From: a virus
Virus record (IMG/VR): IMGVR_UViG_3300005577_000109
Coordinates: 1 to 20,022 of that record
Length of the DNA: 20,022 nt
Strand: one strand, 5' to 3'
Made by a program: the position numbers and the translations under genes. Below are positions 3,725 through 19,496 of the stretch, one piece after another. Within the stretch, counting starts at the first letter, position 1. Each line of letters starts with the position of its first letter. The notes below the pieces were generated by a model that saw only the letters and a program-made list of their open reading frames with translations, was not told the origin of the DNA and made no database searches.

Positions 3725-4026
3725 ATGACAACATTTATCCGCTAAGCGGCCAGCCCTTTGCCCTGCGGCCGCCCCAAAAACAGATAGAAGAGCGCAAAGA
3801 AGAGATCGCCAAGACCCTAGACCAGCTTCCGCTAATTAAAGAGGTTATTAGTCGGCTTGACACCAAATTAGCCGCCACCGACTCAGTCAAAAAAGCCCTG
3901 GAAGTATCCGATAAGTATCAAATCAGCCGGGAAAATGCCCTGATTGTGCTGGATATCGTCAACCAACAGCTAGCTACGGAGAGGAGTTTTCTTCAGACCA
4001 AAGTTGAACAAGTCTCCCAGAGATAG
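3721..4026 (+). CDS. Small coiled-coil protein after portal, 101 aa
   Basis: The start ATG overlaps the portal stop (ATGA at 3721-3724), so translation is very probably coupled. The product has a Pro-rich N-terminus followed by long charged helices (QKQIEERKEEIAKTLDQL and later a Leu/Val heptad-like region) that look coiled-coil forming. I do not recognise a family. The position between portal and scaffold is compatible with a small portal-associated, scaffold-like or head-assembly factor, but that is inference from location only. No signal peptide or membrane segment is visible. Confidence 0.75.
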   Translation: MNDNIYPLSGQPFALRPPQKQIEERKEEIAKTLDQLPLIKEVISRLDTKLAATDSVKKALEVSDKYQISRENALIVLDIVNQQLATERSFLQTKVEQVSQR

Positions 4027-5938: not shown

Positions 5939-6148
5939 ATGGCAAATCTAACTTGGCAAGAAAAGCTTGAAAAGGGTTTACCCCTAAACGAGCTGGAACG
6001 AGTCAAAGAGGCCGCTGAACGTATCACACTGCGCCGCATCCGCGATGCAGAAGAAGACGCTAAGCGTGCCGCCGAGCGTGCTGGCGCATCCGTCAATTCG
6101 CTTGAACCAAAAGAAACATCGCCAAAAGACTCAAAGAAAGGTAACTAG
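5939..6148 (+). CDS. Small charged helical protein, 69 aa
   Basis: ATG 5939 follows AAGGAGTAATA. The product is very rich in Glu, Lys, Arg and Ala and predicted helical (KEAAERITLRRIRDAEEDAK), with a Ser/Pro/Lys-rich tail. I do not recognise a family; by position after the capsid gene it may be a small head component. Its stop TAG (6146-6148) is directly followed, in the same frame, by the TTG start of the HNH gene, so readthrough would give a fusion. A 12-base sequence at its end (6133-6144) is repeated at 6435-6446; removing one repeat unit would join this gene in frame to the decoration-like gene at 6454. Confidence 0.75.
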   Translation: MANLTWQEKLEKGLPLNELERVKEAAERITLRRIRDAEEDAKRAAERAGASVNSLEPKETSPKDSKKGN

Positions 6149-6446
6149 TTGGAAGGAAACATAACACGCCAACGTAGATACGCCCTCAAGAAAAGGGCCG
6201 AAGTGCTAGAAGCACTCGGAAATCAATGCGTTGTTTGTGGGATAACCGACCCCCGTGTTCTGCAAATAGATCACGTTAATGGCGGAGGTACCCAAGAACA
6301 TCGAAAGATTAAATCAAGAACCATCTTTTTAAGAAAAGTTCTCGATGACCAAGAAGGACTCTACCAACTGTTATGCGCAAATTGTAATTGGATCAAAAGA
6401 TTTGAGAACAATGAAAACCCGACCAGGAAACTTTAAAGAAAGGTAA
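6133..6446 (+). repeat. 12-bp direct repeats flanking the HNH gene
   Basis: AAAGAAAGGTAA occurs at 6133-6144 and again at 6435-6446, bracketing the HNH gene with a 302-base period. Each copy also serves as ribosome-binding site for the gene that follows it (TTG 6149; ATG 6454). This looks like the footprint of an insertion or duplication, although purine-rich ribosome-binding sites can resemble one another by chance. Confidence 0.6.
6149..6436 (+). CDS. HNH endonuclease, free-standing
   Basis: The 95-aa product has the compact HNH fold signature. There is a basic N-terminal helix, CVVC at 27-30, IDHVNGGG with D41-H42, and LLCANCNWIKRFEN at 74-87 with the second zinc Cys pair C76/C79. The usual His after the second Cys pair is Asn80, a variant seen in some HNH families. 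Such proteins are metal-dependent DNA nickases/endonucleases and in phages are often mobile homing enzymes. The start is taken as TTG 6149, seven bases after AAAGG (6137-6141); the frame upstream is closed only by the TAG at 6146. It interrupts a run of structural genes and lies between 12-base direct repeats, which suggests insertion. Confidence 0.85.
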   Translation: MEGNITRQRRYALKKRAEVLEALGNQCVVCGITDPRVLQIDHVNGGGTQEHRKIKSRTIFLRKVLDDQEGLYQLLCANCNWIKRFENNENPTRKL

Positions 6447-6453
6447 ACAACAT

Positions 6454-6819
6454 ATGGCTAATGCAGATGTTAACCTCAGTGGCTTCGGCTACAACCAGGT
6501 TACCGCAGTAACCGGCAACAAAACGCTGGCCGCAACTGACTGTGGAGTTGTCCAAAACGTGACTGCTACCTGTACTGTAACCCTTCCTGCCACCGCTGTC
6601 GGCGATGTACACATCGTCCGCGTCGGTGCAGAAGGCATCACCGTAACTGTAGCTCCTAACGCCGTAGACAACATTCGCGGCAACGGCTTTACCGCTGCTG
6701 ACAACAAAGCCGCTATCGCTACCTCCCTGCCCGCCGGCTCATTCATCAAGCTCGTCGCTGATGGTGCTGCTGGCTGGACGGTTGACAGCGTCCGCGGAGT
6801 TTGGACTCGCCAAGCTTAA
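6454..6819 (+). CDS. Probable head decoration/structural protein, 121 aa
   Basis: The product is Ala/Thr/Val rich with short alternating hydrophobic strands and no charged helices (for example TCTVTLPATAVGDVHIVRVG), as in small all-beta capsid decoration or fibre proteins. The segment VTLPATAVGDVHIVRVGAEG resembles beta-sandwich domains found in many phage structural proteins. The ATG at 6454 follows AAAGG and lies in NDE-like CATATG. Position after the capsid gene (interrupted only by the HNH gene) supports a virion role. Decoration versus neck or fibre role cannot be resolved from sequence alone. Confidence 0.7.
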   Translation: MANADVNLSGFGYNQVTAVTGNKTLAATDCGVVQNVTATCTVTLPATAVGDVHIVRVGAEGITVTVAPNAVDNIRGNGFTAADNKAAIATSLPAGSFIKLVADGAAGWTVDSVRGVWTRQA

Positions 6820-6829
6820 CAACTAATTA

Positions 6830-6888
6830 GGGGTGGTTTAATCCACGATTAGCTTAATCGTTGAGGCTAACGGAATAAAAACCGCCCC
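6830..6888 (+). promoter_or_regulatory. Nested inverted-repeat RNA element between structural genes
   Basis: GGGGTGGTTT (6830-6839) pairs with AAACCGCCCC (6879-6888) over 10 bp with one G-U. Inside it, ACGATTA (6845-6851) and TAATCGT (6855-6861) form a perfect 7-bp hairpin with a 3-base loop. It fills the 84-base gap before the gene at 6904 and ends 9 bases before AAGG. No T-tract follows, so an mRNA-stability or processing element is as likely as a terminator. Confidence 0.55.
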
Positions 6889-6903
6889 CTCCAAGGAAAT
6901 CAA

Positions 6904-7170
6904 ATGACAAGAGTATATACACCACAAAACATCACAACGGCCACCACTACCACCGTTAAGAGCGGTGCCGGGATACTCGGAAAAATCGTGGTCAACGCTA
7001 CGGCTGCCGGCTCTATCACGGTCTATGACAGCCTGACCGCTTCGGGAACCAAGATCGCCACCATGAAAGCATCTATCGGAGAGGGTTCTTACTCATTCGA
7101 TGCCGCTTTCGCCACTGGGCTAACTGTCGTAACAGCCGCCGCTTCGGACATAACTGTCTGCTACAACTAG
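6904..7170 (+). CDS. Small beta-rich structural protein, 88 aa
   Basis: The product is Thr/Ala/Ser/Gly rich with a beta-strand pattern (GILGKIVVNATAAGSITVYDS, then KIATMKASI). This pattern is common in small phage capsid-associated proteins with a compact beta-sandwich that occur after the major capsid protein. The start ATG 6904 follows AAGGAAATCAA. No catalytic motif, signal or membrane segment is visible. It probably is a decoration or minor head protein. The evidence is composition and context; no specific family name can be justified. Confidence 0.7.
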   Translation: MTRVYTPQNITTATTTTVKSGAGILGKIVVNATAAGSITVYDSLTASGTKIATMKASIGEGSYSFDAAFATGLTVVTAAASDITVCYN

Positions 7171-7180
7171 GAGTCATTTA

Positions 7181-7366
7181 ATGGCATACATTGAACCTCC
7201 TATCAAGATAAAGCCCTCTCATAGAGGCAAGTTTACCGCTTGGGCTAAAGCCCACGGTTTTTCAAGCGTCCAAGCCGCCGCTTCGGCAGTTTTAGCTAAC
7301 AAATCGGCTTATTCGCCAGAAGTGGTCAAGATGGCTAATTTCGCTAGAAACTTCGGAGGCAAGTAA
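7181..7366 (+). CDS. Small basic conserved-type phage protein, 61 aa
   Basis: The product is short, basic and helical. The pattern KIKPSHRGKFTAWAKAHG, then SVQAAASAVLANKSAYSPEVVKMANFARN, is one I recognise as recurring in small proteins of many phage head-gene clusters. Its function is not established to my knowledge. The start ATG 7181 follows TAGGAGTCATTTA and the stop overlaps the next start by one base (TAATG), indicating tight coupling. The constant pairing with capsid genes suggests a virion or assembly component. Confidence 0.75.
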   Translation: MAYIEPPIKIKPSHRGKFTAWAKAHGFSSVQAAASAVLANKSAYSPEVVKMANFARNFGGK

Positions 7367-7716
7367 TGGCACTAAAGATCAAAGATTTAGTCAGAGGCAC
7401 CACCCGTGCTATCAACCTGACATTCACAGCCGAGGACGGCACTCCGCACGATCTGACCGGCGGGACCGTGTTCTTCGTAGCCACATCTGACGCTAATCCC
7501 TCCAGTGACAGTGATGCGGCCATCGATATAACGCCTGTTACGAGCCATACGGCCCCAACACTAGGACAGACAAGGATTGTTCTGAGCGCGGCACAAACGC
7601 GAATCGCCCCAGGAACCTATAATTTCGGCGCACAAGCTGTCTTGGCTGATGGGACGGTAATCGAACAGACCGGTAAGTTCAAAGTTCTGGCAGATTACGC
7701 GGTAAGCACCAGTTAA
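7366..7716 (+). CDS. Ig-like phage structural protein (BppU N-terminal-like)
   Basis: The 116-aa product has the signature of the immunoglobulin-like domain found in phage baseplate upper proteins and many small virion proteins. It reads as a GTTRAINLTF opening strand, then DLTGGTVFFVAT, a variable loop, RIVLSAAQTRIAPGTYNF and a last strand ending in TGKFKVL. As a stand-alone domain next to head genes it may serve as decoration, as an attachment for fibre proteins, or as a tail component. The start ATG overlaps the previous stop by one base; the ribosome-binding site GGAGG lies about 7-11 bases upstream. Family resemblance is from memory of the pattern. Confidence 0.7.
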   Translation: MALKIKDLVRGTTRAINLTFTAEDGTPHDLTGGTVFFVATSDANPSSDSDAAIDITPVTSHTAPTLGQTRIVLSAAQTRIAPGTYNFGAQAVLADGTVIEQTGKFKVLADYAVSTS

Positions 7717-7724
7717 GGAGGAAT

Positions 7725-7913
7725 ATGGAAACAATCAAAATCGAAGGCAAGCACTATGAAGTCACCGGATACGCCGAGGACGGCTTGCCAATCATCAAGG
7801 GAGAAGCCGTATCGACCCAGGACGGGTTCGATGAGGTCGGCAACCCTAAAGTAAGTGTAAATATAACAGTTCCCTCGGTTCCAATCGGGGTAACACCAGG
7901 AAAGATAGAATAA
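7725..7913 (+). CDS. Hypothetical protein, 62 aa
   Basis: ATG 7725 follows TAAGGAGGAAT, an excellent ribosome-binding site. The product begins METIKIEGKHYEVTGYAEDGLPIIKGEA, a short beta-rich opening, and ends in a Val/Pro-rich stretch. It has no recognisable domain, signal peptide or membrane segment. It is packed between two probable virion protein genes (8 bases after the previous stop, 1 base before the next start) and is presumably a minor structural or linker protein. Confidence 0.7.
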   Translation: METIKIEGKHYEVTGYAEDGLPIIKGEAVSTQDGFDEVGNPKVSVNITVPSVPIGVTPGKIE

Positions 7914-7914
7914 T

Positions 7915-8367
7915 ATGGCAGTAGTAACTAAAATTTATCCCAACTACCTCAACGATATGCTGACGGCAACGGCGGGGTGGACAACCCAGACGGTCAACTG
8001 CGCCCTTTTCAGCGCATCGACCTTCACTACCACCGACACCGCTTACACGACCAGCGGTACAGAGGTAGCTAACGCCAACGGCTACACGACCGGTGGTTTA
8101 GCGGTAGGCACAAGGACTCTAAGCACGGCAACCACGACTATCCAGCTCGCCAAGATAACCGGCGCGGCCGGCGGCGGTTCGGCTGGCACGACCACTTGGA
8201 CAGCTACCGGAGCTGGTTTCTCAGCCGTAGCCGCCAAGCTCTACGTTGTCGCAGGACACCCAATCGCCCACATCGATTTCGGCGGAACTCAGACTGCATC
8301 AGGTGGCGGTACTTTCGTAATCACATGGGACGCAACCAACGGCGTATTTAACTTAGCCTCAAGTTAG
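7915..8367 (+). CDS. Phage structural protein, beta-rich, 150 aa
   Basis: The product is rich in Thr, Ala and Gly with a strong beta pattern and ends HPIAHIDFGGTQTASGG followed by TFVITWDATNGVFNL. That ending is very like the C-terminus of a recurring small structural/fibre-associated protein in phages, with a final 'FGG...GG-TF-I-W' strand pair. The N-terminus (KIYPNYLNDML) also fits that group. The role is probably a head fibre, decoration or tail appendage component. ATG 7915 follows AGGAAAG and lies one base after the previous stop (TAATATG). Confidence 0.7.
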   Translation: MAVVTKIYPNYLNDMLTATAGWTTQTVNCALFSASTFTTTDTAYTTSGTEVANANGYTTGGLAVGTRTLSTATTTIQLAKITGAAGGGSAGTTTWTATGAGFSAVAAKLYVVAGHPIAHIDFGGTQTASGGGTFVITWDATNGVFNLASS

Positions 8368-8384
8368 TCTAGGAGGGGGACGAT

Positions 8385-9407
8385 GTGTTCGACTCATCCT
8401 ACTATGACAAGATATGGGGCACAGTTCACCGGCACGACTATTGTAAGACGCTAGCCGATAACCTGATTGCTAAATATAATCCACGATCCGTGCTTGATAT
8501 CGGCACGGGTTGTGGCTATTTAGTCAAAATCTTAAGAGATAAAGGGGTAAAAGCTTATGGGTTGGAGATATCAGAGTATGCAGTTGCTAATTCGCACGGA
8601 AATATCTTGGTTGGAGATGTCCGTGACCTACCATTTTCCGATAAATCCTTTGACGTTGTCTGCTCGCAGGGGCTATGGGAATATATACCCGAATCAGATA
8701 TAGCCAAAGCCTGGAGCGAATGCTTAAGGGTAGGCAAAAACCAGGAACATAATATTGATACTACTAACGACCAGTCAGACTGGAGTAAGGAGTTTGTGAC
8801 TCATAAACCGGCTGAATGGTGGGCGGAAAAGCTGAGACAGCCCAAAGTCCTAGTTGCTTGTCCGAACCACATCGTCAAAGAGTATTCATTCCAGCGATGG
8901 ATAGATAACGTCAAGAACTTAACCTTCCCGAACTACGACATCCTGGTAGTAGATAACTCTCCTAACGGCGAGCTGATTGAGAAATACGGCGACCAAGTGC
9001 CGATAATCAAACTGCCGACTGAGGGAATAGAGCACCTATCGGTAACACGCATGAACCGCTCAATGGAGTTGATTAGACAGAAGTTCTTAGAGGGCGGTTA
9101 TGCACACTGGATGGACATTGAATCGGATGTCATCCCCGAATCAAGCGTTATAGAGAAGCTCATGAAGCTTAAAGTTGACTGGGCTTCTCACGCCTATCCC
9201 GCGAGAGGAACAACAGACGGTTCTGTCCAGCAGGGTATCGGCTGTTCTTTATTATCCCGACATTTGCTGGAGAACTTTGACTGGAAGGACGCCGAAGATA
9301 ACACCACACCTGACGGCTGGCTGTGGGAACGAGTTAGGCCGAGAGTTTATGAATTTCCTACCCATGAGATGTACGGCATCATTAAAATGGAGCATCTAGC
9401 GAGTTAA
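8385..9407 (+). CDS. Fusion: class I SAM methyltransferase + GT-A-like glycosyltransferase
   Basis: The start is GTG 8385, eight bases after AGGAGG; an overlapping ATG at 8383 gives only a 23-codon frame. Residues 1 to about 150 are a small SAM-dependent methyltransferase: LDIGTGCGYL (37-46, motif I), acidic E61 in GLEIS, GDVRDLPF (77-84), VVCSQGLWEY (91-100) and a C-terminal HNID...EWWAEKL piece. Residues 154-340 resemble a GT-A glycosyltransferase: VLVACP (155-160), DILVVDNSPNG (185-195) and MDIESDVI (243-250), the last in the place of a metal-binding DxD. The gene lies between structural genes and directly before the fibre, so modification of a virion protein or its glycan is plausible. 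DNA or host-glycan modification are alternatives. Both activities are inferred from motifs. Confidence 0.75.
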   Translation: MFDSSYYDKIWGTVHRHDYCKTLADNLIAKYNPRSVLDIGTGCGYLVKILRDKGVKAYGLEISEYAVANSHGNILVGDVRDLPFSDKSFDVVCSQGLWEYIPESDIAKAWSECLRVGKNQEHNIDTTNDQSDWSKEFVTHKPAEWWAEKLRQPKVLVACPNHIVKEYSFQRWIDNVKNLTFPNYDILVVDNSPNGELIEKYGDQVPIIKLPTEGIEHLSVTRMNRSMELIRQKFLEGGYAHWMDIESDVIPESSVIEKLMKLKVDWASHAYPARGTTDGSVQQGIGCSLLSRHLLENFDWKDAEDNTTPDGWLWERVRPRVYEFPTHEMYGIIKMEHLAS

Positions 9408-9408
9408 T

Positions 9409-11655
9409 ATGCCTACTATTCGACAAGAAATAAATATTCTCACACATAAACTTACGGGAAGTACCGTTGATTCTAGCGAAATAGTCCAGCTTGATACCGC
9501 CCAGTATGTCAACCCGACTTACTATTTTGAGGTAGTAGCCCAAAATGTTTTGGGCGGCGAGACAATCGCTCTAAGGAGAAAGGGAACTACAACCGACGAC
9601 GTGACCATTACTCCCTCGACAGTCTCCTCTTATACTCGGTTTAGGTCATCATCTTTTACGCCGCCAGCGGGTCAAACAGAATATATTATCCATGCGGTAC
9701 AGGTTGGGAGCGGGGTGGATGTTAAGTCTGCAAAAATCATTATAATAGACAACCCCACCACCCTAACCTCTTCCGAAACCCAAATAGAAATCGGCATGAT
9801 CAAGACGGGGCTGACCTCTACCGCCGCCACCAAAGTAGTACCGGATTCTACCTTAACTAAATACTGGAAATATACGGCCGCTAACTGGGACGGCACAACT
9901 ACATTCTATGCTGAAGTAACTTACTTAATGGCTTCCAGTAAATCCGGTGGCACGTTTGTATTACAAGAAGATAATGGTTCATTCGCTAGCTGGACGGATA
10001 AGGTAACCATCGTCAGTGCCGGAGTCGCTACGGCGGCTACCAGAGTCCGTTCGGCTTCATTCACTCCGACAGATGGCAGGAATTATAGGATTGCCTATTT
10101 TGTAGCTTCAAGTAAGTCGGCCGCCTCTATCTTTAACGCTAAGGTTATTGTAGACCAAATCTATACAGATATAGATAGTTATTCAGAAGCTAATTCGAGC
10201 AATGCTCGTCAGGATTATTCTGGACTATCTAATGGTCAATCATTCACTGGTAATGGGTCTGCGATAGTTGCAGCTATTGTACAGCTCAAAAAGGGCGGTT
10301 CTCCTGCGGGTAATATGTTTGCGAAAATATATGCTCATTCTGGTGTATATGGGACTTCTAGCGTACCGACTGGGGCTGCTCTTGCTACTTCAGACGCTTT
10401 TGATGTTTCTACCCTAACAACTTCCTTTATTATGCAGCCATTCATTTTTAGTGGTGCAAATCAAATTACTCCGACTAATGGTACGAATTATGTATTGACT
10501 CTCGAAACCTCTGGTGGCGATGCGAGTAATGCCGCCCAATGGGGTTCTGATACTAATTCACCCACCGCTTCTGGGAATCGTTCATTTAATACTGGCTCCG
10601 GTTGGACGGCAGCGGCTACGGAAGATATGATATTCCATATAGTATCGGCCTTCCCCGCCCTCCTAGAACCCCAATACCTACTACTTAATACAGCCGATAG
10701 TAATGCTACGGGGGTGCAAGGTTATCAGACCCTTTGGGATTCAACCGAGTGGTCTGGCGTTACAAACACTTATAAACACGCAATAGATTCAGATAATGCA
10801 TCTAATTCGGCTAAATTAAGAGATATAACTGGCTCGGCTGATGTTACCAGCTCGACTGTCACGGGTGCTAACCAGCAGATAAGTTCTGCGCTTACGATGC
10901 CGACAACCGGCGATGAAATAGATACTTGGATTCTAAACACTACCGGCGTGGTGGGAGCAAGCAGGATATTAGTCCAAAGTACGGTCAGTAGTTCTACGAG
11001 CGCATCAATAACCCAAGTCGCCGCCACTATCACTGCCTCTGGCGGGACGCAGAGTGTCTCGGCAATCTCAACATCTAGCGTCTCAATTACCCAAGTGGCG
11101 GCTACTGTTACTGCGACCGGTGGAATTCAGACAGCTAAATCTAACGCCTCCCTCGCGCAATCAGCGGCCAATGTCACGGCTTCGGGCGGCACACAAACTG
11201 CTGTTGGAACAGTACTAAATCTATCCTTCAAACAATCTACTACTGGTGGAAGTACGACCGGATCGCCGGCCGTATCCAGTGCTTTTGGTTCGCCAGTCAC
11301 TGCCGGGAACCTGATTGTTGTGACGACAGCGGATAATTCAGGCACGACAACCGGGGTGACTGCCGTATCCGATACCGGCGGCAATACCTATAGCCAGATT
11401 CTTGATACTCACGGCACTAACGGTTTCCAAATGTGGTATGCGGTTATAACGACAGGTGGTTCGTCATTTACAGTCTCGGTCACTTGGAGCACAGGGTTCA
11501 CTTCACAAGTGCAGTTCGTGGCTCAGGAGTTTCAGGGGTTCACCGGAACGCCAGCCCTAGACAAATCTGCCTTCAGCCCCTCTACCGGGGTACGACCAGC
11601 CAGAATCCAACATCAGGGGCTACTGCAACGACAACTCATCCCCAAGAGATTGTAG
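9409..11655 (+). CDS. Fibre/adhesin-like modular structural protein, N-terminal part (frameshifted)
   Basis: This is the first part of what is clearly one gene running to 12884. Residues 1-245 contain two related beta-sandwich units, each with an 'R-R-S-SFTP' strand (RFRSSSFTP, RVRSASFTP). Residues about 255-415 form a distinct module (GQSFTGNG, then KIYAHSGVYGTSSVPTG, then TNGTNYVLTLE), a domain I know from secreted and phage-associated proteins. About 420-530 is another beta domain. Three repeats with 'Q-AA-ITASGGTQ' follow (about 532-600), and then a domain starting SPVTAGNLIVVTTADN. After the GGGG run at 11587-11590 the frame is wrong: the last 20 residues (RPARIQHQGLLQ and so on) are out-of-frame sequence. 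ATG 9409 follows the previous stop by one base; no strong ribosome-binding site, so translation is probably coupled. Confidence 0.75.
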   Translation: MPTIRQEINILTHKLTGSTVDSSEIVQLDTAQYVNPTYYFEVVAQNVLGGETIALRRKGTTTDDVTITPSTVSSYTRFRSSSFTPPAGQTEYIIHAVQVGSGVDVKSAKIIIIDNPTTLTSSETQIEIGMIKTGLTSTAATKVVPDSTLTKYWKYTAANWDGTTTFYAEVTYLMASSKSGGTFVLQEDNGSFASWTDKVTIVSAGVATAATRVRSASFTPTDGRNYRIAYFVASSKSAASIFNAKVIVDQIYTDIDSYSEANSSNARQDYSGLSNGQSFTGNGSAIVAAIVQLKKGGSPAGNMFAKIYAHSGVYGTSSVPTGAALATSDAFDVSTLTTSFIMQPFIFSGANQITPTNGTNYVLTLETSGGDASNAAQWGSDTNSPTASGNRSFNTGSGWTAAATEDMIFHIVSAFPALLEPQYLLLNTADSNATGVQGYQTLWDSTEWSGVTNTYKHAIDSDNASNSAKLRDITGSADVTSSTVTGANQQISSALTMPTTGDEIDTWILNTTGVVGASRILVQSTVSSSTSASITQVAATITASGGTQSVSAISTSSVSITQVAATVTATGGIQTAKSNASLAQSAANVTASGGTQTAVGTVLNLSFKQSTTGGSTTGSPAVSSAFGSPVTAGNLIVVTTADNSGTTTGVTAVSDTGGNTYSQILDTHGTNGFQMWYAVITTGGSSFTVSVTWSTGFTSQVQFVAQEFQGFTGTPALDKSAFSPSTGVRPARIQHQGLLQRQLIPKRL

Positions 11656-12648
11656 TCGGAGGAGTGCAGCACTCCGGTACCGCTTCTGCTTTCTCTCTCG
11701 GCAGCGGCTATACGAATCTGGGGACAGTAAATGCCACGGGGGTGGCAGTTGCCCAGGAATCTATGGGCGTAGCAACTACCGGAGCGCAGACGGCTACCTT
11801 TTCGATAGCCGCCTCCAGTGAGTGGGTCGCCGGCGTCGCGACATTTTATGACAATACCTCCAGTGCATCGGCGAATATCACGCAACTAGCGGCAACGGTC
11901 ATAGCTACTGGGGGCGTCCCGTCGGTCGCGGCCCAGATCAGCGCGAATGTCTCTCAATCGGGGGGAACCATCTCGGCTGCCGGTGGTATCCAAACGATTA
12001 CTACTGTTAGGATAGTATCTATAGCTCAGTCGGCCGGGGTTATTACGGCATCTGGCGGCACTCAGAGCATAACTACTACACAATTCGTATCGATTACCCA
12101 GCTGGCAGGAACCGTAACGGCAACCGGGGGCACGCAAGTCGCAAAGACAAATGCGGCCATTTCTCAATCAGCGGCCAGTGTAACAGCCGCAGGTGGCACG
12201 CAGTCTATTGCCACAGTTCAGAATGTATCAATCACACAGCTAGCCGCAACTATCACCGCGGCTGGCGGTGCGCAGAGCGTCGGCAATGTCCAAAGCGTCA
12301 CGATTGCACAGACGGCGGCCAATATCACGGCTACCGGAGGCACTCAGACAGCAGCGAGTGTGCAAAAAGTGGCAACTTCCCAGCTAGCCGCAACTATCAC
12401 CGCCACCGGTGGCACACAAACGATAAATGCCGTAAGGAACGTAGCGATTTCTCATGTGGCGGCAACCGTCACCGCTGCCGGTGGAACTCAGAGCGTTGTT
12501 GCCAAACAGCTAGTGAATATAGCCCAGATTGCGGCGAATATCACAGCAAGTGGAGGGACACAAGCATTATCTATTGTACTGAGTGCGGCGATCTCTCAGC
12601 TCGCCGCCACTATCACTGCTTTCGGCGGAACTCAGACTGTCTCTGCCG
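11002..12648 (+). repeat. Fourteen coding tandem repeats of the fibre shaft, split by a domain
   Basis: About 66-78-base units encode repeats with the core pattern 'Q-AA-(I/V)TA-GGTQ'. Three lie at 11002-11211 and eleven at 11865-12648, separated by a roughly 215-residue domain. The repeats vary in DNA sequence while keeping the protein core, so they are old rather than a recent expansion. They are coding, not a CRISPR array. Confidence 0.85.
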
Positions 12649-12884
12649 CCGATTTCAGCCTGCCGTTCGATGACCTGACAATCGTTTCCTATACCGACTA
12701 TCTCATAATTACCAGCTACGAAGACACCATCCGGCTAACCTCCCGAGCCGATGATTCCCTTACCATTAAGAGCTTCACCGATTCGCTGATAATCAAGCAA
12801 AATGCAGATGATTTGACCGACAAATCAACCAGCGATGATTTAACAGTCCACTCTTACGAAGATAACCTCATAATATCTTCTTAA
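11589..12884 (+). CDS. Fibre/adhesin-like protein, C-terminal part after the frameshift
   Basis: The frame from about 11589 to the TAA at 12882-12884 continues the fibre protein: GTTSQNPTSGATATTTHPQE and then EWVAGVATFYDN complete the domain begun upstream. One inserted G in the GGGG run would join the two parts into a product of about 1158 aa. Next come eleven tandem repeats of about 22-26 residues around the core 'VSITQLAATITAAGGTQS' (11865-12648), then a C-terminal array of about eight 9-10-residue units such as DDLTIVSYTD, LIITSYED and DSLTIKSFTD. Such repeats build long beta-solenoid or stacked shafts. An open frame begins as early as 11433, but its first 50 residues are out-of-frame sequence. 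No receptor-binding or enzymatic tip domain is recognised. Confidence 0.7.
   Translation, partial: GTTSQNPTSGATATTTHPQEIVVGGVQHSGTASAFSLGSGYTNLGTVNATGVAVAQESMGVATTGAQTATFSIAASSEWVAGVATFYDNTSSASANITQLAATVIATGGVPSVAAQISANVSQSGGTISAAGGIQTITTVRIVSIAQSAGVITASGGTQSITTTQFVSITQLAGTVTATGGTQVAKTNAAISQSAASVTAAGGTQSIATVQNVSITQLAATITAAGGAQSVGNVQSVTIAQTAANITATGGTQTAASVQKVATSQLAATITATGGTQTINAVRNVAISHVAATVTAAGGTQSVVAKQLVNIAQIAANITASGGTQALSIVLSAAISQLAATITAFGGTQTVSAADFSLPFDDLTIVSYTDYLIITSYEDTIRLTSRADDSLTIKSFTDSLIIKQNADDLTDKSTSDDLTVHSYEDNLIISS
12661..12884 (+). repeat. C-terminal 9-10-residue solenoid-like repeats
   Basis: The end of the fibre gene encodes about eight short units with the pattern 'DDLTI-S(Y/F)(T/E)D' (DDLTIVSYTD, YLIITSYED, TIRLTSRAD, DSLTIKSFTD, SLIIKQNAD, DLTDKSTSD, DLTVHSYED, NLIISS). 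Alternating Leu/Ile and Asp in a 9-10 residue period suggests a beta-solenoid or stacked hairpin cap. Confidence 0.75.
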
Positions 12885-12887
12885 CAG

Positions 12888-12896
12888 TGGTATAAT
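12888..12896 (+). promoter_or_regulatory. Extended -10 promoter TGGTATAAT
   Basis: TGGTATAAT lies 4 bases after the fibre stop codon. No clear -35 is seen. A transcript from about 12903 would pass through two direct repeats and a hairpin (12945-12997) before the second promoter at 13008-13036, so it may make a short RNA of about 100 bases or contribute to the CAP gene. Confidence 0.55.
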
Positions 12897-12944
12897 ATAG
12901 TCAAGCACAGGCGATGACCGATAAGGGGTCAAGCTGAAAACCAA

Positions 12945-12997
12945 AATAAGTAAGGAGTGCCAGGTACGCGAATAAGTAAGCGGCCGAACATTACTTA
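12945..12997 (+). promoter_or_regulatory. Direct repeats with a shared complementary arm in the intergenic leader
   Basis: AATAAGTAAG occurs at 12945-12954 and 12971-12980. Either copy can pair through TAAGTAA with the single TTACTTA at 12991-12997, giving two mutually exclusive hairpins. A small TGACC/GGTCA hairpin (12915-12919 with 12927-12931) precedes them. The T-tract after the 3' arm is weak (CCTTTAAAA), so a terminator is not certain. Confidence 0.4.
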
Positions 12998-13007
12998 CCT
13001 TTAAAAC

Positions 13008-13036
13008 TTGAGATTCAGATATAAAAGTGGTATAAT
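13008..13036 (+). promoter_or_regulatory. Sigma70-type promoter, TTGAGA-N17-TATAAT with TGG extension
   Basis: TTGAGA (13008-13013) and TATAAT (13031-13036) are 17 bases apart, and TGG (13028-13030) extends the -10. The expected start point, about 7 bases after the -10, falls on or next to the GTG start codon at 13043, so the transcript should be leaderless. It is the best promoter in the window. Confidence 0.85.
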
Positions 13037-13042
13037 CACCTC

Positions 13043-13681
13043 GTGAAAAGGATAATTGTCCTTATTGTGGTGGTGATTTTAGCCCTGTCAGGCGGTGTAC
13101 TGGCTTTAAGACATACCAATACGTCTAAACCTACCGAAAACACCTCCCAAACGGCTCAAAATGCCCACACACCGCTAACAGCAGATGATATCTTCAGCCT
13201 AGTCAACCAGCAACGGGTAAATAGCGGCCTTCAACCCTATATCGCAGCAGCAGAACTGGCAAAATCCTCTTTGGATAAGTGCCTGGATATGGTCAAGGGC
13301 AACTATTACGCCCACATCAACCCGACAACGGGAATGCAGGGTTACGAGTACATCAAACAAGAGCTACCATCAGCCAAGGACCTGAGTGAGAATATCGAAA
13401 AGATTGCCTCAGACGATCCTCAGCTGATAGTTGATAGATGGATGGCAAGCCCGGAACATAAAGCCGCAATTCTAAGTACCGATTTCACGGTAAGCGGCCT
13501 ATCAATCTGCCGTGACCCTAACGATATTTACCAACAAAACTTCATCGTTGAGCACTTCGCTAGCCTACAGTCCCAAACCACTTATGTCGCGCCCCAATCT
13601 ATCGGAACCTTGTGTCAAGATGGTTGGATAAGTTCTTCTACTGGCAGCGGAAGCTGCTCTTGGCACGGCGGCGAATTATAA
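13043..13681 (+). CDS. Secreted/membrane-anchored CAP (SCP/PR1) domain protein
   Basis: GTG 13043 begins MKRIIVLIVVVILALSGGVL, a positively charged N-terminus plus hydrophobic segment (4-22) that acts as signal anchor or signal peptide. A Thr/Ser/Asn/Gln-rich linker (24-44) leads to a CAP domain (about 46-175): IFSLVNQQRVNSGLQP, YYAHINP (H91), LSENI (E116), WMASPEHKAAIL (E138, H139), and QNFIVEHFA (E170/H171), which line the usual CAP cavity. The C-terminus (190-212, CQDGW...SCSWHGGEL) resembles the short Cys-rich DUF3761-type motif. CAP proteins bind lipids or act as secreted effectors or proteases; the role here is unknown. With its own promoter amid virion genes it looks like a 'moron' expressed independently, perhaps altering the host surface. 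A virion part is less likely. Confidence 0.85.
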   Translation: MKRIIVLIVVVILALSGGVLALRHTNTSKPTENTSQTAQNAHTPLTADDIFSLVNQQRVNSGLQPYIAAAELAKSSLDKCLDMVKGNYYAHINPTTGMQGYEYIKQELPSAKDLSENIEKIASDDPQLIVDRWMASPEHKAAILSTDFTVSGLSICRDPNDIYQQNFIVEHFASLQSQTTYVAPQSIGTLCQDGWISSSTGSGSCSWHGGEL

Positions 13682-13686
13682 TCTGA

Positions 13687-13704
13687 GTCTCCTCATCAGG
13701 AGAC
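13687..13704 (+). promoter_or_regulatory. Hairpin sequestering the ribosome-binding site
   Basis: GTCTCCT (13687-13693) and AGGAGAC (13698-13704) form a perfect 7-bp hairpin with a CATC loop. The 3' arm contains the AGGAG ribosome-binding site of the gene starting at 13709. The hairpin begins 6 bases after the stop of the CAP gene, so a ribosome finishing that gene could open it: a translational-coupling or repressor-binding switch. Confidence 0.65.
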
Positions 13705-13708
13705 ACCA

Positions 13709-14728
13709 ATGGATTTACAAGGCTCTTCGAGTCTTTTGCAGGGCGGCACTACTATCGCTCCCGTTACCACCAGCCCTCAAATCTCAACCTATCAAACTCA
13801 ACCAGCCACCAATGTATTAAATTACAGCGGCTCAACCCCCACGTATCCCGTATATAATGCGACTACTTACGACACCACAGCGACAGCACCAGCACAGCCG
13901 ACCTATTACTACGACTCGGCCGGTAACGCTTACACCGATCAAGCTTCAGCTACCCAAGCTGACCAGAATTTAGCAGCCATACAGCTCGCCCAAGCAGCCC
14001 TAAATCGCATCCCCAATCAGCTAGCTATCGCTGACCAGAACATCGGAACCCAGTATGATCAGAGCAAACAGAGCCTAGATACAGACGCGGCCAACGCCCT
14101 CAGCTCTTTCAATACCAGCTCTACCCAAAACCAGCAGGACTACCGGACGGGACAGAACACCGTCAATTCCCAAGCTTCCCAGGATAACCAAAGCTTACTC
14201 CGAATCCTCGCCGGGCTTGGTGCCGGCGGCGGTTCGGAAGCTAAGTACTTAATCCCCAGTCTAGTCGGTAATGTCGCCAGCAAAGGCTTAAGCGCCGCTG
14301 CCCAGACCTTCGGCCAGAACGCTCAAGGGCTGAACACCGCCTACGGTAACTTCCAAAACCAAGACAAGACCGAGCGAGCTAACTTAGAGAACTGGCTAAG
14401 CTCTCAAAACAATTCCGCCCAGTCTACGGCCGACCAGAACAAGATTAGTCTGCTCCAAACTATCGCCGGACTGCAGACTAATCTCTCGGCCGCCTCTCCC
14501 TACCTTTCTCAGATAAATGACTTGTCTTCAGCGGTTGATAATCTGGCTAAGATCAATCCGCAATACGCGGGCAGCCTACCACAATACGTTGCTCCATCAC
14601 TTTCGACCTTTGTTCCCCAGGGCAACCAGCCTATCGCTATCGCCCAGCAAGCCACCCAGCCTGGTACACCTTCCTATCTGAGCTTGCTATCTGGACTTAA
14701 AGACAAAACCAGCCCATTAACAGCTTAA
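13709..14728 (+). CDS. Internal virion/ejection-type protein, 339 aa
   Basis: The product is strongly enriched in Gln, Ala, Ser and Asn, with a low-complexity Thr/Pro/Tyr N-terminus (1 to about 75) followed by long helices (about 80-290; for example AAIQLAQAALNRIPNQLAIA) and a disordered C-terminus. A small Gly-rich turn (LAGLGAGGGSEAKYL) sits in the middle. Such composition, and the position before a giant protein carrying a peptidoglycan hydrolase, fits podovirus core/ejection proteins (as T7 gp14/gp15 and P22 gp7/gp20 in role, not in demonstrated homology). No signal peptide or catalytic motif is visible. Its ribosome-binding site lies in a hairpin; the next gene begins 10 bases after its stop. 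Confidence 0.6.
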   Translation: MDLQGSSSLLQGGTTIAPVTTSPQISTYQTQPATNVLNYSGSTPTYPVYNATTYDTTATAPAQPTYYYDSAGNAYTDQASATQADQNLAAIQLAQAALNRIPNQLAIADQNIGTQYDQSKQSLDTDAANALSSFNTSSTQNQQDYRTGQNTVNSQASQDNQSLLRILAGLGAGGGSEAKYLIPSLVGNVASKGLSAAAQTFGQNAQGLNTAYGNFQNQDKTERANLENWLSSQNNSAQSTADQNKISLLQTIAGLQTNLSAASPYLSQINDLSSAVDNLAKINPQYAGSLPQYVAPSLSTFVPQGNQPIAIAQQATQPGTPSYLSLLSGLKDKTSPLTA

Positions 14729-14738
14729 GGAATCTACT

Positions 14739-17700
14739 TTGGCCACTTTGCTCAAAGTCAATAACGACTACAACCTACCTAATATAGGTATAAGCAGCGG
14801 ACAAGCTCCGCCGCCAGCGCCGCTAATCAACATCCAAAACGCCCAAGGGGCATATGTTCCGCAGACTTACGTTCCGCCGCCAGCACCGACTCCCCAGACA
14901 CCGACTTGGGGAGTTACTCCGATACGCCCTTCACCTCTACAGAGTGTGCTTAGGGTGTTAAGCGGCTTAGCCAGCCCGGCTACGGCCGCTGGTAAATTAG
15001 CCGGTAATGATGCCAGTTTGATCGCCGCTAGATTGACCGGTAACCAAAAAGCTAGGCAAAATGCCAGATTGGCCGGGCAAAACAACCTTAATAAGCTGGT
15101 CGATACCACCAGACAGTTCACTACCCGCCCGGCGGTTGAGTTAATCAGCTCGGTCATACCCAAGCAAAAGACTTTCACGCCCAACGGCGGGGTAGAAAAA
15201 GCTCTATTAGGCTCAACCCCGATCCAAAATATCGAGAAGAAAGTCGCCAATAACTACGCTACCCATCCAAACCTAAGCCCAGCCGCCAGAGTCGCCCTAG
15301 CTGCTGGAGAAGGACTTGGTAGTTTAGCTCAGGATGTGCCGATTGTCGGCGGTGAAGCCAAGCTGGCTGGAAAAGCCCTTAAGGCAGTCAAAGTCCCAGA
15401 AGCAGTCAACGCTATTAATGCTATTCCTAAGAACGAAATAGGCGCAGTCGGCAAAAACGTAAACCCCGAAGCATCGCCAAGACCCAGAGAACAGATAATC
15501 TCAGACATCCAAGCCAATATAAAAGCCGCCAAAGCCGCTACCGGCCACGAACCCGGTGAGTTCAGAAGCATCAAAGGCTCCAAAACCGGAGCCAAGAGCA
15601 ATATGACCGCATCGATGAAACCTTATTGGCAGAAACATGAGCAATTAAGAGAAGAGTTGAACCAGTCTAAGCCTAATGTACCGGATGAAAATTTAGCTAA
15701 GCGTTATCAAGAGATGGGGCAACAAATAGCTAATGATAATCGTAACGCACTCTTTGAGGTTGCTCAAAAAAAAGGTTTTAAGGCTGAGTTTACCCCTACA
15801 AATACTTATCGATACACCTTGACCAGCCCAGAGGGTAAAACTATTAGAGCCGAATCCTTAAGCGATGCTTATAGGCTTATAGGCACCAATCATTTAAAAG
15901 AATTTGAGGATTCATATAAAGTCACCCAACCCACACCTATACCGGAAGTACCGAAGGCATTACAGTCGTATATTATAGGACATACGGACATTCCGCCGGA
16001 AATTAAAACTAACATAGCTAGCGGAAACGATATTGTTACCTTATATCACGCTACTAATAACCCAGAGGCTATCCTTAAAAGTGGCAAACTCCAGCCGGAA
16101 GGTGCGAGACTGTCTATAGAAGATAGAAAGTTTAGCGAAAACCCCGACCATATTTTTCTGACACCTAACCCAGAAAGAGCGAAAGAATTTGGAGATAAAT
16201 TGGTTCAGGTTAAACTGCGCTCCGGTGACCCAAATCTCACTAATATTGATTCCCTTGATTATAAATACAGAGGTGAATTACCTGTAAAACCAGTCACCCA
16301 GCCCACACAAGGGGCTAAACAAACTTCCTCATATTTGCCCGCGCCTCAGACTGCGGCAAAGGAGGCGAAGGCAGCGAGCGGTCCTGTTGCTGAAACCGCC
16401 GTTTCCGCCGCCAAGCCAAAATTGGAATCCAAAGCACCAACAAAACCAGCGGCACCACCCCAAAAATCAGTAGTAGCCACACCCAAATCGTTACTATCTC
16501 CATTGTCTAAGACTACCACACCACTTACTAATGAGGAAATCAAGATTGGACATGCCCTTGGCCTGGATAAGCGACAAATGGCGGCGGCTAAGAGCCAAAA
16601 CGCCCTTGATAAAGCCTTTCAAACCTCAATGGCCGATATCCGGGCTGGCAAAAACCCCAAAGTCTCACCAGATGACCTGGCCTCCATGAGCGGCCCGGAA
16701 CAGATGAGGGTATCTAACTACCTAAATTCTCTGACCGCACCGAAACGCGAGTTACCAAAGTCCCCCAATGGCGTAGCCGAGCTACCCAAGCGCCAGCCCG
16801 TCCCAACCGCTAAGTACTTATTCTCGACTAAAGTTAACGCTATCCGCTCAATTGGCGGCAAAGACGCTAACGACTTGGCTGATAGGATCGTAAATACCGA
16901 TAGGGAAGCCCGCGACTTACGGGCTAATTGGATGAACCAGTCTAAAACGGTTATGAGCCTAAGCAAGAAAGAGTTTGAAGAGGCCGTAGACGTTAAAGAA
17001 GGCAAGCTACCGGCCTCCGCCGTAGGCAGTCGGGTCAACAAGGCTGTAGCCGAGATGAGCAAAGTCTTTCCCGACGTCCACTCTCAGGGCTTTGGCGAAG
17101 GCTTAATAATTGGTGATCGGGGAGCGACCTATTTCCCCCATTCCTATCCGAACCTAAACAAGCTCAAAGGCTCCAAGTTAGATAACGACCTGCAGTACCT
17201 AATGGACACCGAACAAGTTGACCACCGCACCGCTACGGAATTGTTCAACCAGATGGCGAAAGAGGGTAAATACCCTAACCGCTTTGGTAACTTCGCCAAT
17301 GCCCGGCTGACTGAAATGCCCGGCTACTATAAAGACAAGCAAGCCTATACCTCCTACCTCCAATCGGCCGCCCAGAACATAGCCGAAGCTCGCCATTTTG
17401 GCACCGACAATGAAATAGCTAATAAGCTAATCGACAACATCAGGATTAACGGTGGCGATAACGAAGCCGCTCAGAAGGCTCTGGAGAATTACCTGCGCGA
17501 AGCCGACAGAGGCCGCTTGTCTAAACCGCTACAAGCCGTTCGCGGCACTTACGGCGCGTTAACCCTGGGTAAAGCGGCAATCTCCCACGCCGGCCAGACC
17601 TCCAATACCGCAGTTGAAGCTGGAATAGCCCGGACACTTAAGGGCTGGGGTGAATATATAAGCCAAAACAAAGAGGGCAGGTCATTTATTGACAAAACCG

Positions 17701-19496
17701 GCGTTACTAACCCACAAGAGCTTCACAGCTACCGCGAACAGCTAACGTCATTTAAGGGAATCAAGGGCAAGTTAACCGCACCTGGTCTAAATAAGATTAT
17801 GAAGATTAACCGCTCGGTAACCGCACTAGCTGGCCGGGCTTATGGTAACCATCTGGCCGAAACCGGCAACGTAGCTAAGTTGCGTGAACTCGGTGTTACT
17901 GGCGATATTGGTGAGAAACTCACCGAAAGCCAGCAGATCGAAGCGGCCAGGGGCTTAGTCGACCATACTATGTTCAGTGGCTCGCGCTCTACCACGCCAA
18001 TCCTGGCCGAAACCGCTGCCGGTAAGACAATCGGCCAGTTTAGGACTGCCTATGCTTATAAACAGACCGGCTTTATCTATAACCAAGTAGTTAAAGAAGC
18101 CCGGAAGGGCAATCTTGCGCCCCTGGCTCGCTATCTAACTGTTTCAGCCGCTATTGGTGCGGGGACAGTAGCCATAAAAAACAAGATTTCTGGTCGAAAA
18201 GAAGGTCCTGGCGGCATCGCTATGGACGCCGCAGCCGCTTTGGGTGGCTTACCCGGTGAGGCCGCCTCCGAATTGATCCGCTACGGTATTGGACACCATA
18301 ACCTTACCGGCGCGGTTGCTGGTGAGCTTGCTCCCCTGGCCGGAGAAGGCTTAAATACGCTTGAAGCAATCGACAAAGGCGGAAAATCAGCCGAGCGTTA
18401 TGCACTTAAGAAAATCCCCTACGTTGGTAACCGGGTGGCTCAAAAGGTTACCCCGCCAGCCCCGGCACCGACCAAAACCCAGGTCGCTCAAGGCGCTAAA
18501 CAGCCGCAAAAGGGAATTTACCAAGTCAAAGCTAAGGATGGCTCGACTAAATACGCCACGCTCCAGGGCAAGAACCTCAAGACCTTCTCAACCCTAAAAG
18601 ACGCCCAGGCCGCCCAGGCTAAGAATGAATTTAAGTACTCCAGTAATAAGGTAACTAATATTAACGGACAAGTTTACCATAAATCCTCATCCGGCACCGT
18701 GGTCAAAGGCACTCCGCCGGCTCCCTCAACCAGCTCCAGCAACCTAAAAACGGTTTATGACCCTAAATCCAACACTTGGACCCGCACCAATGTCCAGACC
18801 GGACGGACGGTAAAGATTGCCTCCGATGGGTCACAGACTGTCTTAGATGAAGGACTGGGTAGGATAACCAACGCCAGGAGCGATTTTGTGTCCAATATAA
18901 CCGCCACCGCCCAAAAATACGGCGTAGAACCGCGCTCTGCTCTGGCTGTCGCGGCTATGGAAGGCTTATCCGGGGCGGTCGGAGATAATGGCACCTCCTT
19001 CGGGCCATTTCAATTACATATCGGCGGTGCGCTTCCTGCCGGTAAAGACCAGGCTTGGGCCGAATCCCCTGCCGGCATAGACTACGCCATACAGCAGATC
19101 GCCAAAGTCGCCAAAGGCAAGACCGGGGCTGATGCGATTAACGCTATAGTCTCCTCATTCGAGCGCCCGGCCAATCCCCAGAACGAAATCGCCGGGGCGC
19201 TGAGTGTCTACAACGGCCGGAACGTCAGCTTGAATAGTTCAAGTGCCAGAACTTATAAGCTCAGTGGCTCCAAGTCCTCCGGCTCATCCAGCTCAAGTGG
19301 CGTTAAAGCCGCCAAAGCTACTCTCTCAGCGGTTATCAAAGCCCAGAAATCGGCTTCCGCTGCCATCAAACCGCCTAAAGCCCCGGCCGCGCCGAAGCTC
19401 AAGACCTCGTTCAAATCACCCGGCCTTAAGAAACAATCAGGCGCAGTCAGCGGATTCTCACAGGGCAGCCGAATATCAGTTAAAAAGAACGCCTAA
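14739..19496 (+). CDS. Giant ejection/internal virion protein with ART-like and lytic transglycosylase-like domains
   Basis: TTG 14739 follows AAGGA by 7 bases. The 1585-aa product is multi-domain. It opens with a Pro-rich N-terminus (about 22-60) and helical basic segments. Residues about 415-505 are a probable ADP-ribosyltransferase-like domain: IVTLYHATNNPEAILKSG (Y436-H437), HIFLTPNPERAKEFGDK and LVQVKLRSG. A large helical region (about 690-1200) resembles phage polyvalent/ejection proteins and includes a possible membrane-inserting stretch near 1125-1150 (LARYLTVSAAIGAG). A Pro-rich linker near 1237 follows. Residues about 1385-1490 form a lysozyme-like domain: AQKYGVEPRSALAVAAMEG with E1408 as likely catalytic acid, then GTSFGPFQLHIGGAL and the helix ending GALSVYNG. 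The tail is Ser/Lys/Pro rich. T7 gp16 likewise couples a transglycosylase to a huge ejected protein, but homology is not shown. The ART-like part is AT-richer than its flanks. Confidence 0.8.
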   Translation: MATLLKVNNDYNLPNIGISSGQAPPPAPLINIQNAQGAYVPQTYVPPPAPTPQTPTWGVTPIRPSPLQSVLRVLSGLASPATAAGKLAGNDASLIAARLTGNQKARQNARLAGQNNLNKLVDTTRQFTTRPAVELISSVIPKQKTFTPNGGVEKALLGSTPIQNIEKKVANNYATHPNLSPAARVALAAGEGLGSLAQDVPIVGGEAKLAGKALKAVKVPEAVNAINAIPKNEIGAVGKNVNPEASPRPREQIISDIQANIKAAKAATGHEPGEFRSIKGSKTGAKSNMTASMKPYWQKHEQLREELNQSKPNVPDENLAKRYQEMGQQIANDNRNALFEVAQKKGFKAEFTPTNTYRYTLTSPEGKTIRAESLSDAYRLIGTNHLKEFEDSYKVTQPTPIPEVPKALQSYIIGHTDIPPEIKTNIASGNDIVTLYHATNNPEAILKSGKLQPEGARLSIEDRKFSENPDHIFLTPNPERAKEFGDKLVQVKLRSGDPNLTNIDSLDYKYRGELPVKPVTQPTQGAKQTSSYLPAPQTAAKEAKAASGPVAETAVSAAKPKLESKAPTKPAAPPQKSVVATPKSLLSPLSKTTTPLTNEEIKIGHALGLDKRQMAAAKSQNALDKAFQTSMADIRAGKNPKVSPDDLASMSGPEQMRVSNYLNSLTAPKRELPKSPNGVAELPKRQPVPTAKYLFSTKVNAIRSIGGKDANDLADRIVNTDREARDLRANWMNQSKTVMSLSKKEFEEAVDVKEGKLPASAVGSRVNKAVAEMSKVFPDVHSQGFGEGLIIGDRGATYFPHSYPNLNKLKGSKLDNDLQYLMDTEQVDHRTATELFNQMAKEGKYPNRFGNFANARLTEMPGYYKDKQAYTSYLQSAAQNIAEARHFGTDNEIANKLIDNIRINGGDNEAAQKALENYLREADRGRLSKPLQAVRGTYGALTLGKAAISHAGQTSNTAVEAGIARTLKGWGEYISQNKEGRSFIDKTGVTNPQELHSYREQLTSFKGIKGKLTAPGLNKIMKINRSVTALAGRAYGNHLAETGNVAKLRELGVTGDIGEKLTESQQIEAARGLVDHTMFSGSRSTTPILAETAAGKTIGQFRTAYAYKQTGFIYNQVVKEARKGNLAPLARYLTVSAAIGAGTVAIKNKISGRKEGPGGIAMDAAAALGGLPGEAASELIRYGIGHHNLTGAVAGELAPLAGEGLNTLEAIDKGGKSAERYALKKIPYVGNRVAQKVTPPAPAPTKTQVAQGAKQPQKGIYQVKAKDGSTKYATLQGKNLKTFSTLKDAQAAQAKNEFKYSSNKVTNINGQVYHKSSSGTVVKGTPPAPSTSSSNLKTVYDPKSNTWTRTNVQTGRTVKIASDGSQTVLDEGLGRITNARSDFVSNITATAQKYGVEPRSALAVAAMEGLSGAVGDNGTSFGPFQLHIGGALPAGKDQAWAESPAGIDYAIQQIAKVAKGKTGADAINAIVSSFERPANPQNEIAGALSVYNGRNVSLNSSSARTYKLSGSKSSGSSSSSGVKAAKATLSAVIKAQKSASAAIKPPKAPAAPKLKTSFKSPGLKKQSGAVSGFSQGSRISVKKNA
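15600..16310 (+). other. AT-richer module carrying the ART-like domain within the ejection protein
   Basis: From about 15600 to 16310 the base use differs visibly from both flanks, with many A/T-ending codons and runs such as AAAAAAAA near 15768. The sample 15721-15780 has 20 G/C of 60, against 34 of 60 in 14221-14280 of the neighbouring gene. The segment corresponds to residues about 288-524 and includes the ART-like domain, suggesting that this module was acquired separately. The boundaries are by eye. Confidence 0.5.

Follow-up and report, generated by a model that had tools for sequence, protein, structure and literature searches.

A compact ADP-ribosyltransferase-superfamily domain in a large virion-type protein of a temperate tailed phage

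Polyvalent virion-type phage proteins are known to combine ADP-ribosyltransferases (ARTs) with other domains, lysozyme among them, and one such protein belongs to a podovirus (PMC5512222). In a later survey, approximately 44% of phage ARTs were located in contexts suggestive of packaging and ARTs were present in approximately 3% of podoviruses (PMC9503650). Virion-delivered ARTs of the HY-[EDQ] type with a lysozyme partner were described between 2017 and 2022 in these two studies. No paper on ARTs within the internal virion proteins of podoviruses was found when the literature was searched. Here, we analysed a 20,022-nucleotide stretch of viral DNA (positions 1-20,022 of IMG/VR record IMGVR_UViG_3300005577_000109, hereafter the window), in which an initial annotation had proposed an ART-like domain within an ejected virion protein. 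Profile searches, a bridging protein family and a predicted structure support the presence of a compact ART-superfamily domain at residues 427-516 of a 1585-residue protein, bearing out the proposed fold. The suggestion that such an injected effector would be noteworthy is weakened by the published polyvalent proteins, and what is new here is the small size of the domain, the phenylalanine at its second active-site position and the particular fusion.

Evidence for the domain and its active site

The protein, the domain and its active-site positions are located as follows.

14739..19496, plus strand: large virion- or ejection-type protein of 1585 residues bearing the ART domain; open reading frame (ORF) with a TTG start
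16017..16286, plus strand: ART-superfamily domain, residues 427-516 (about 90 residues), from phrog_6170, a hidden Markov model (HMM), an AlphaFold2 model and the closest solved structures
16047..16049, plus strand: H437, first active-site position, strand 1 (LYHAT); histidine in 68 of 68 aligned domains
16155..16157, plus strand: F473, second active-site position, strand 2 (HIFLT); column with tyrosine in 45, phenylalanine in 22 and histidine in 1 of 68
16248..16250, plus strand: D504, which closes strand 4 (NLTNID) and is the likely third active-site position; aspartate in 52 of 68

The domain had been placed at 15960-16275, and it does lie there, with an extent of about 16017-16286 that is slightly shifted. 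All of the peptides originally quoted as following the ART pattern are present within residues 435-493, starting with LYHATNN at residue 435 (16041), HIFLT at residue 471 (16149) and VQVKL at residue 489 (16203), such that H437 falls on the first strand and F473 on the second.

The PHROG family phrog_6170, a model built independently of this analysis, covers residues 428-497 at E=2.9e-6. This family also matches the L052/G405 domain, which passes the cut-off of Pfam ART-PolyVal (PF18760), thereby bridging the domain studied here to a recognised ART family. A further phrog_6170 match was obtained to an ORF of another virus, G416 (L119; 1847-1853 residues), which bears Arr-type domains; this ORF (L119 6094-11637) encodes several ARTs, four of them Arr-type and above the PF12120 cut-off. 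Arr membership of the window domain itself was tested and rejected: at E<=10, PF12120 matched neither G000 nor G001 but did match two other viruses. PF18760 did not match the window in Pfam scans to E=10 or in a genome search to E=1, and none of the Tpt1 Pfam models matched the 1585-residue protein. A phmmer search of the PDB with the single sequence returned nothing meaningful, protein scans of viral and genome contigs with the ART recovered the same virus only, and phrog_6170 was not found when sought in 398 genomes of one phylum.

Because single-sequence homology searches failed, viral contigs were scanned at the DNA level with degenerate patterns encoding YH[AG]T and I[FY][LF]T. This search yielded 118 candidate domains, several within very large phage ORFs of 900-4200 residues, and recovered the window's own virus (L142) as a positive control. 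L256, L200, L165 and L139 carry the closest relatives. As these relatives were selected on the motif, particular weight falls on the independent phrog_6170 model and on a masked-motif control, in which the domain scored 13.8 bits against a profile made from an earlier subset after masking of the motif residues, compared to a maximum of 8.8 in 5000 shuffles. When 620 ORFs were searched with an HMM of 67 viral ART-like domains, built without the window, this ORF and an identical ORF in L003 scored E=6.8e-10. The next match was at E=0.42, and the HMM picked nothing else from this virus or from its relatives. Once the window was added (alignment A4, 68 rows), the profile matched 54 PDB chains at E<=1, all of them ARTs (best 7.9e-7), spanning Tpt1/KptA, cholix, diphtheria, PARP, DarT and exotoxin-A-like chains.

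Structure prediction agreed with the ART assignment. An initial AlphaFold model from 16 rows was of low quality (predicted local distance difference test, pLDDT, 54) and was set aside in favour of an AlphaFold2 run on the 68 rows of A4 (pLDDT 79; predicted template modelling score 0.70), which gave the b-a-b-a-b-b-b layout of ARTs with strands at model residues 6-13, which include H437, 45-49, 61-68, 74-78 and 81-85. The closest PDB folds by Foldseek were mostly ARTs, with Tpt1, the Rhs toxins TreX and TreTu, ExoS, tankyrase and CtxA ranking highly (best E=0.034, probability 0.97). Against BFVD, matches included phage G proteins, an annotated mycobacteriophage ADP-ribosyltransferase and, weakly at rank 19, a structural protein of a Flavobacterium podophage.

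The third catalytic residue, left unplaced in the initial annotation, is most likely D504, which is model residue 78 and the last residue of the fourth strand. Taken together, the alignment column and the model strand point tentatively to an H-[Y/F]-D active site; the alignment near residue 500 is gapped and varies between aligners, with D497 and D507 as alternatives. The ARTs of polyvalent proteins have an H-Y-D active site (PMC5512222), and Arr carries an aspartate on its fourth strand (PMC7827354).

Proposed role and alternative explanations

From homology, predicted fold and context, our preferred reading, held with moderate confidence, is that the domain is an ART of the HY-[EDQ] class within a virion-carried protein that is coejected with the phage DNA, and that it uses nicotinamide adenine dinucleotide (NAD+) to modify a host macromolecule. 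Under this scheme the large protein would travel in the virion and enter the host with the DNA, as its gene position and domain fusion suggest, and the lysozyme-like domain near its C-terminus would breach the cell wall. Inside the cell, H437 and F473 would hold NAD+ whilst D504 would assist its cleavage, and ADP-ribose would be attached to a macromolecule of the host, probably a protein, to the advantage of the phage; both activity and target are inferred.

Several observations weigh against this reading. No Pfam family matched the ART domain directly in scans to E=10, with NCBIfam also silent, and no Foldseek match in PDB or BFVD reached E<=0.001. The AlphaFold2 model is not independent of homology because it was built from the ART alignment. 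Position 473 holds phenylalanine where tyrosine is commoner, and only N-I-D remains where relatives commonly have a D-E-D motif; given both substitutions, ART activity may be weak or lost. No ART was seen with phrog_6170 or the HMM in the available sequence of five related contigs (L004-L008), among which the giant gene is whole in L004 and L006 but 5'-truncated in L005, L007 and L008, making the absence less certain in these three. Packaging and ejection, finally, are predicted from gene position and domain fusion.

These substitutions lead to the first alternative, a degenerate ART that has kept its fold, lost catalysis and serves as a binding or structural module of an ejection protein. Beyond the phenylalanine, the unusually short domain (about 90 residues) and the lack of an exact counterpart to the near-invariant first aspartate of D-E-D, which falls in a gap of A4, speak for such decay. 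However, phenylalanine occupies the same column in 22 of the 68 domains, H437 and an aspartate on strand 4 are retained, and Arr also relies on a fourth-strand aspartate (PMC7827354); we regard loss of catalysis as unlikely. Equally speculative, in our judgement, is an elaboration of the preferred reading, whereby the wall-opening ejection protein of a small, podovirus-like temperate phage has acquired a minimal H-F-D ART from a lineage that evolves separately, allowing one polypeptide to breach the wall and modify a host target at entry.

A rather improbable second alternative is that the ART is active but modifies a nucleic acid or small molecule instead of a protein, as for DarT, Tpt1/KptA or Arr. 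Tpt1 leads the profile and fold matches, and H-Y-D with a strand-4 aspartate is the Arr arrangement (PMC7827354), but the Arr family PF12120 does not match the window and the authors of the polyvalent protein survey prefer protein targets (PMC5512222). Quite improbable is an active ART that operates inside the cell where it is made or that modifies the phage, for example in assembly or anti-defence, without being carried into the next host; protection of packaging components has been offered as another reading of such contexts (PMC9503650), yet entry better suits a protein that joins the ART to a wall-opening domain and whose gene lies beside tail-type genes. That there is no ART at all, and that the motif arose by chance in a linker, is scarcely credible and was rejected, as the silence of Pfam even at E=10 and the poor 16-row model are outweighed by the phrog_6170 match, the masked-motif control, the HMM built without the window and the 68-row model.

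The giant protein and its phage

Further features of the protein and its surroundings are listed below.

15600..16290, plus strand: AT-rich module, residues ~288-517, in which an uncharacterised segment precedes the ART domain; guanine plus cytosine (GC) content 0.40
18849..19263, plus strand: goose-lysozyme/transglycosylase-like domain, residues 1371-1508, near the C-terminus, from a profile match and conservation
13709..14728, plus strand: partner protein of 339 residues upstream of the giant ORF; conserved neighbour

Two further elements of the initial annotation, an AT-rich module and a cell-wall hydrolase in the same protein, also found support. The GC content of residues 288-517 is 0.40 compared to ~0.53 around them, a value reached by 0 of 2000 codon shuffles, and the block fits acquisition of a module. 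Residues 285-430 of this block (window 15600-16000) form a segment without a relative among the loci compared, which may be a second acquired domain. The lysozyme-like region, residues 1371-1508, matches lysozyme g with a four-sequence profile at E=0.008 and retains 56-60% identity across the five related viral contigs, with E1408, invariant in four sequences, the likely catalytic glutamate. These five contigs keep the C-terminus of the protein, and in all of them the giant gene is followed by a tail-type gene related to that of this virus; L004 and L006, which extend far enough upstream, also conserve the 339-residue partner, at 25-26% identity to the gene in the same place. The domain itself has 67 viral ART-like relatives, and none was seen in the five related phages; an ejection-type protein can thus keep its lysozyme part and still differ in its effector part.

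The protein shows the polyvalent trait of combining unlike enzymatic domains, here an ART and a lysozyme-like domain. Residues 1048-1153 match a 2551-residue phage protein of L070 (E=4e-9 when the two are compared directly and 2.6e-6 in a search of 340 long ORFs), tying the 1585-residue protein to the polyvalent class. The L070 protein (6117-13769) is itself of polyvalent type, with two HExxH motifs and its own ART-like domain. PF18857 (LPD38) was tried for the common segment and matched nowhere, controls included. Searches of phage records with the whole protein or the domain found no relatives, and a plasmid search with either gave unconvincing matches only.

The same virus is represented by a 40.8-kb contig, IMGVR_UViG_3300005563_000018, which encodes a terminase, an integrase, a CHAP protein and a tail-type gene. 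Together with the portal-like and major head proteins of the window, these genes indicate a temperate tailed phage, likely podovirus-like in morphology; for its integrase, only a 30% match was found. Other genes in this setting include a CAP-domain (SCP/PR1-like) protein inside the structural gene cluster (window 13043-13681; PF00188 E=4.5e-8, phrog_16914 E=4.7e-14) and an S-adenosylmethionine-dependent methyltransferase gene amid virion genes (window 8385-9407; PF08241 E=4.9e-15). After the tail-type gene of L013, a C1q-domain protein (2783-3850; PF00386 E=2.9e-8) is perhaps a receptor-binding protein.

Comparison with described systems

With this locus, the known range of virion-type ARTs comes to include a lineage of small temperate phages without a relative of the 1585-residue protein in the phage records searched. 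Current family models miss such domains, with Pfam silent and phrog_6170 listed as unknown in PHROGs, and the short, self-contained domain is amenable to biochemical testing.

Among known systems, ART-PolyVal (PF18760; H-Y-D; Tox-ART-HYD2 clade), whose prototype is the virion RNA polymerase protein of Roseovarius Plymouth podovirus 1, offers the same plan of an HY-[EDQ]-type ART in a large virion-type phage protein, and for this class lysozyme is a known partner domain and aspartate the third residue (PMC5512222). In contrast, the domain described here spans only ~90 residues without the long C-terminal part of PF18760 members such as L052, has phenylalanine for tyrosine and is unmatched by PF18760. 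The 1585-residue protein also has no recognisable RNA polymerase and no HExxH motif, the mark of a zincin-like peptidase that is common, though not universal, in polyvalent proteins. T7-type internal core and ejection proteins with a transglycosylase also pair a lysozyme-like domain in a giant protein with a smaller partner and tail-type genes nearby, but here the lysozyme-like domain lies near the C-terminus and no PHROG ejection family matches the protein.

Of the more distant ARTs, Arr, the rifamycin ADP-ribosyltransferase (PF12120), has as its third residue a fourth-strand aspartate (PMC7827354), as D504 would be here, but the window domain occurs in another context, presumably acts on a different target and is not matched by PF12120. 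Among solved structures, Tpt1/KptA matches best by both profile and fold, yet no Tpt1 model matches and no RNA lobe was recognised in the 1585-residue protein. With T4 Alt, the domain would share the role of a virion-delivered ART that modifies the host early; Alt, however, belongs to the R-S-E clade, whereas this HY-[EDQ]-like domain has histidine at the first position and resides in a lysozyme-bearing protein, an architecture unlike that of Alt, as had originally been proposed.
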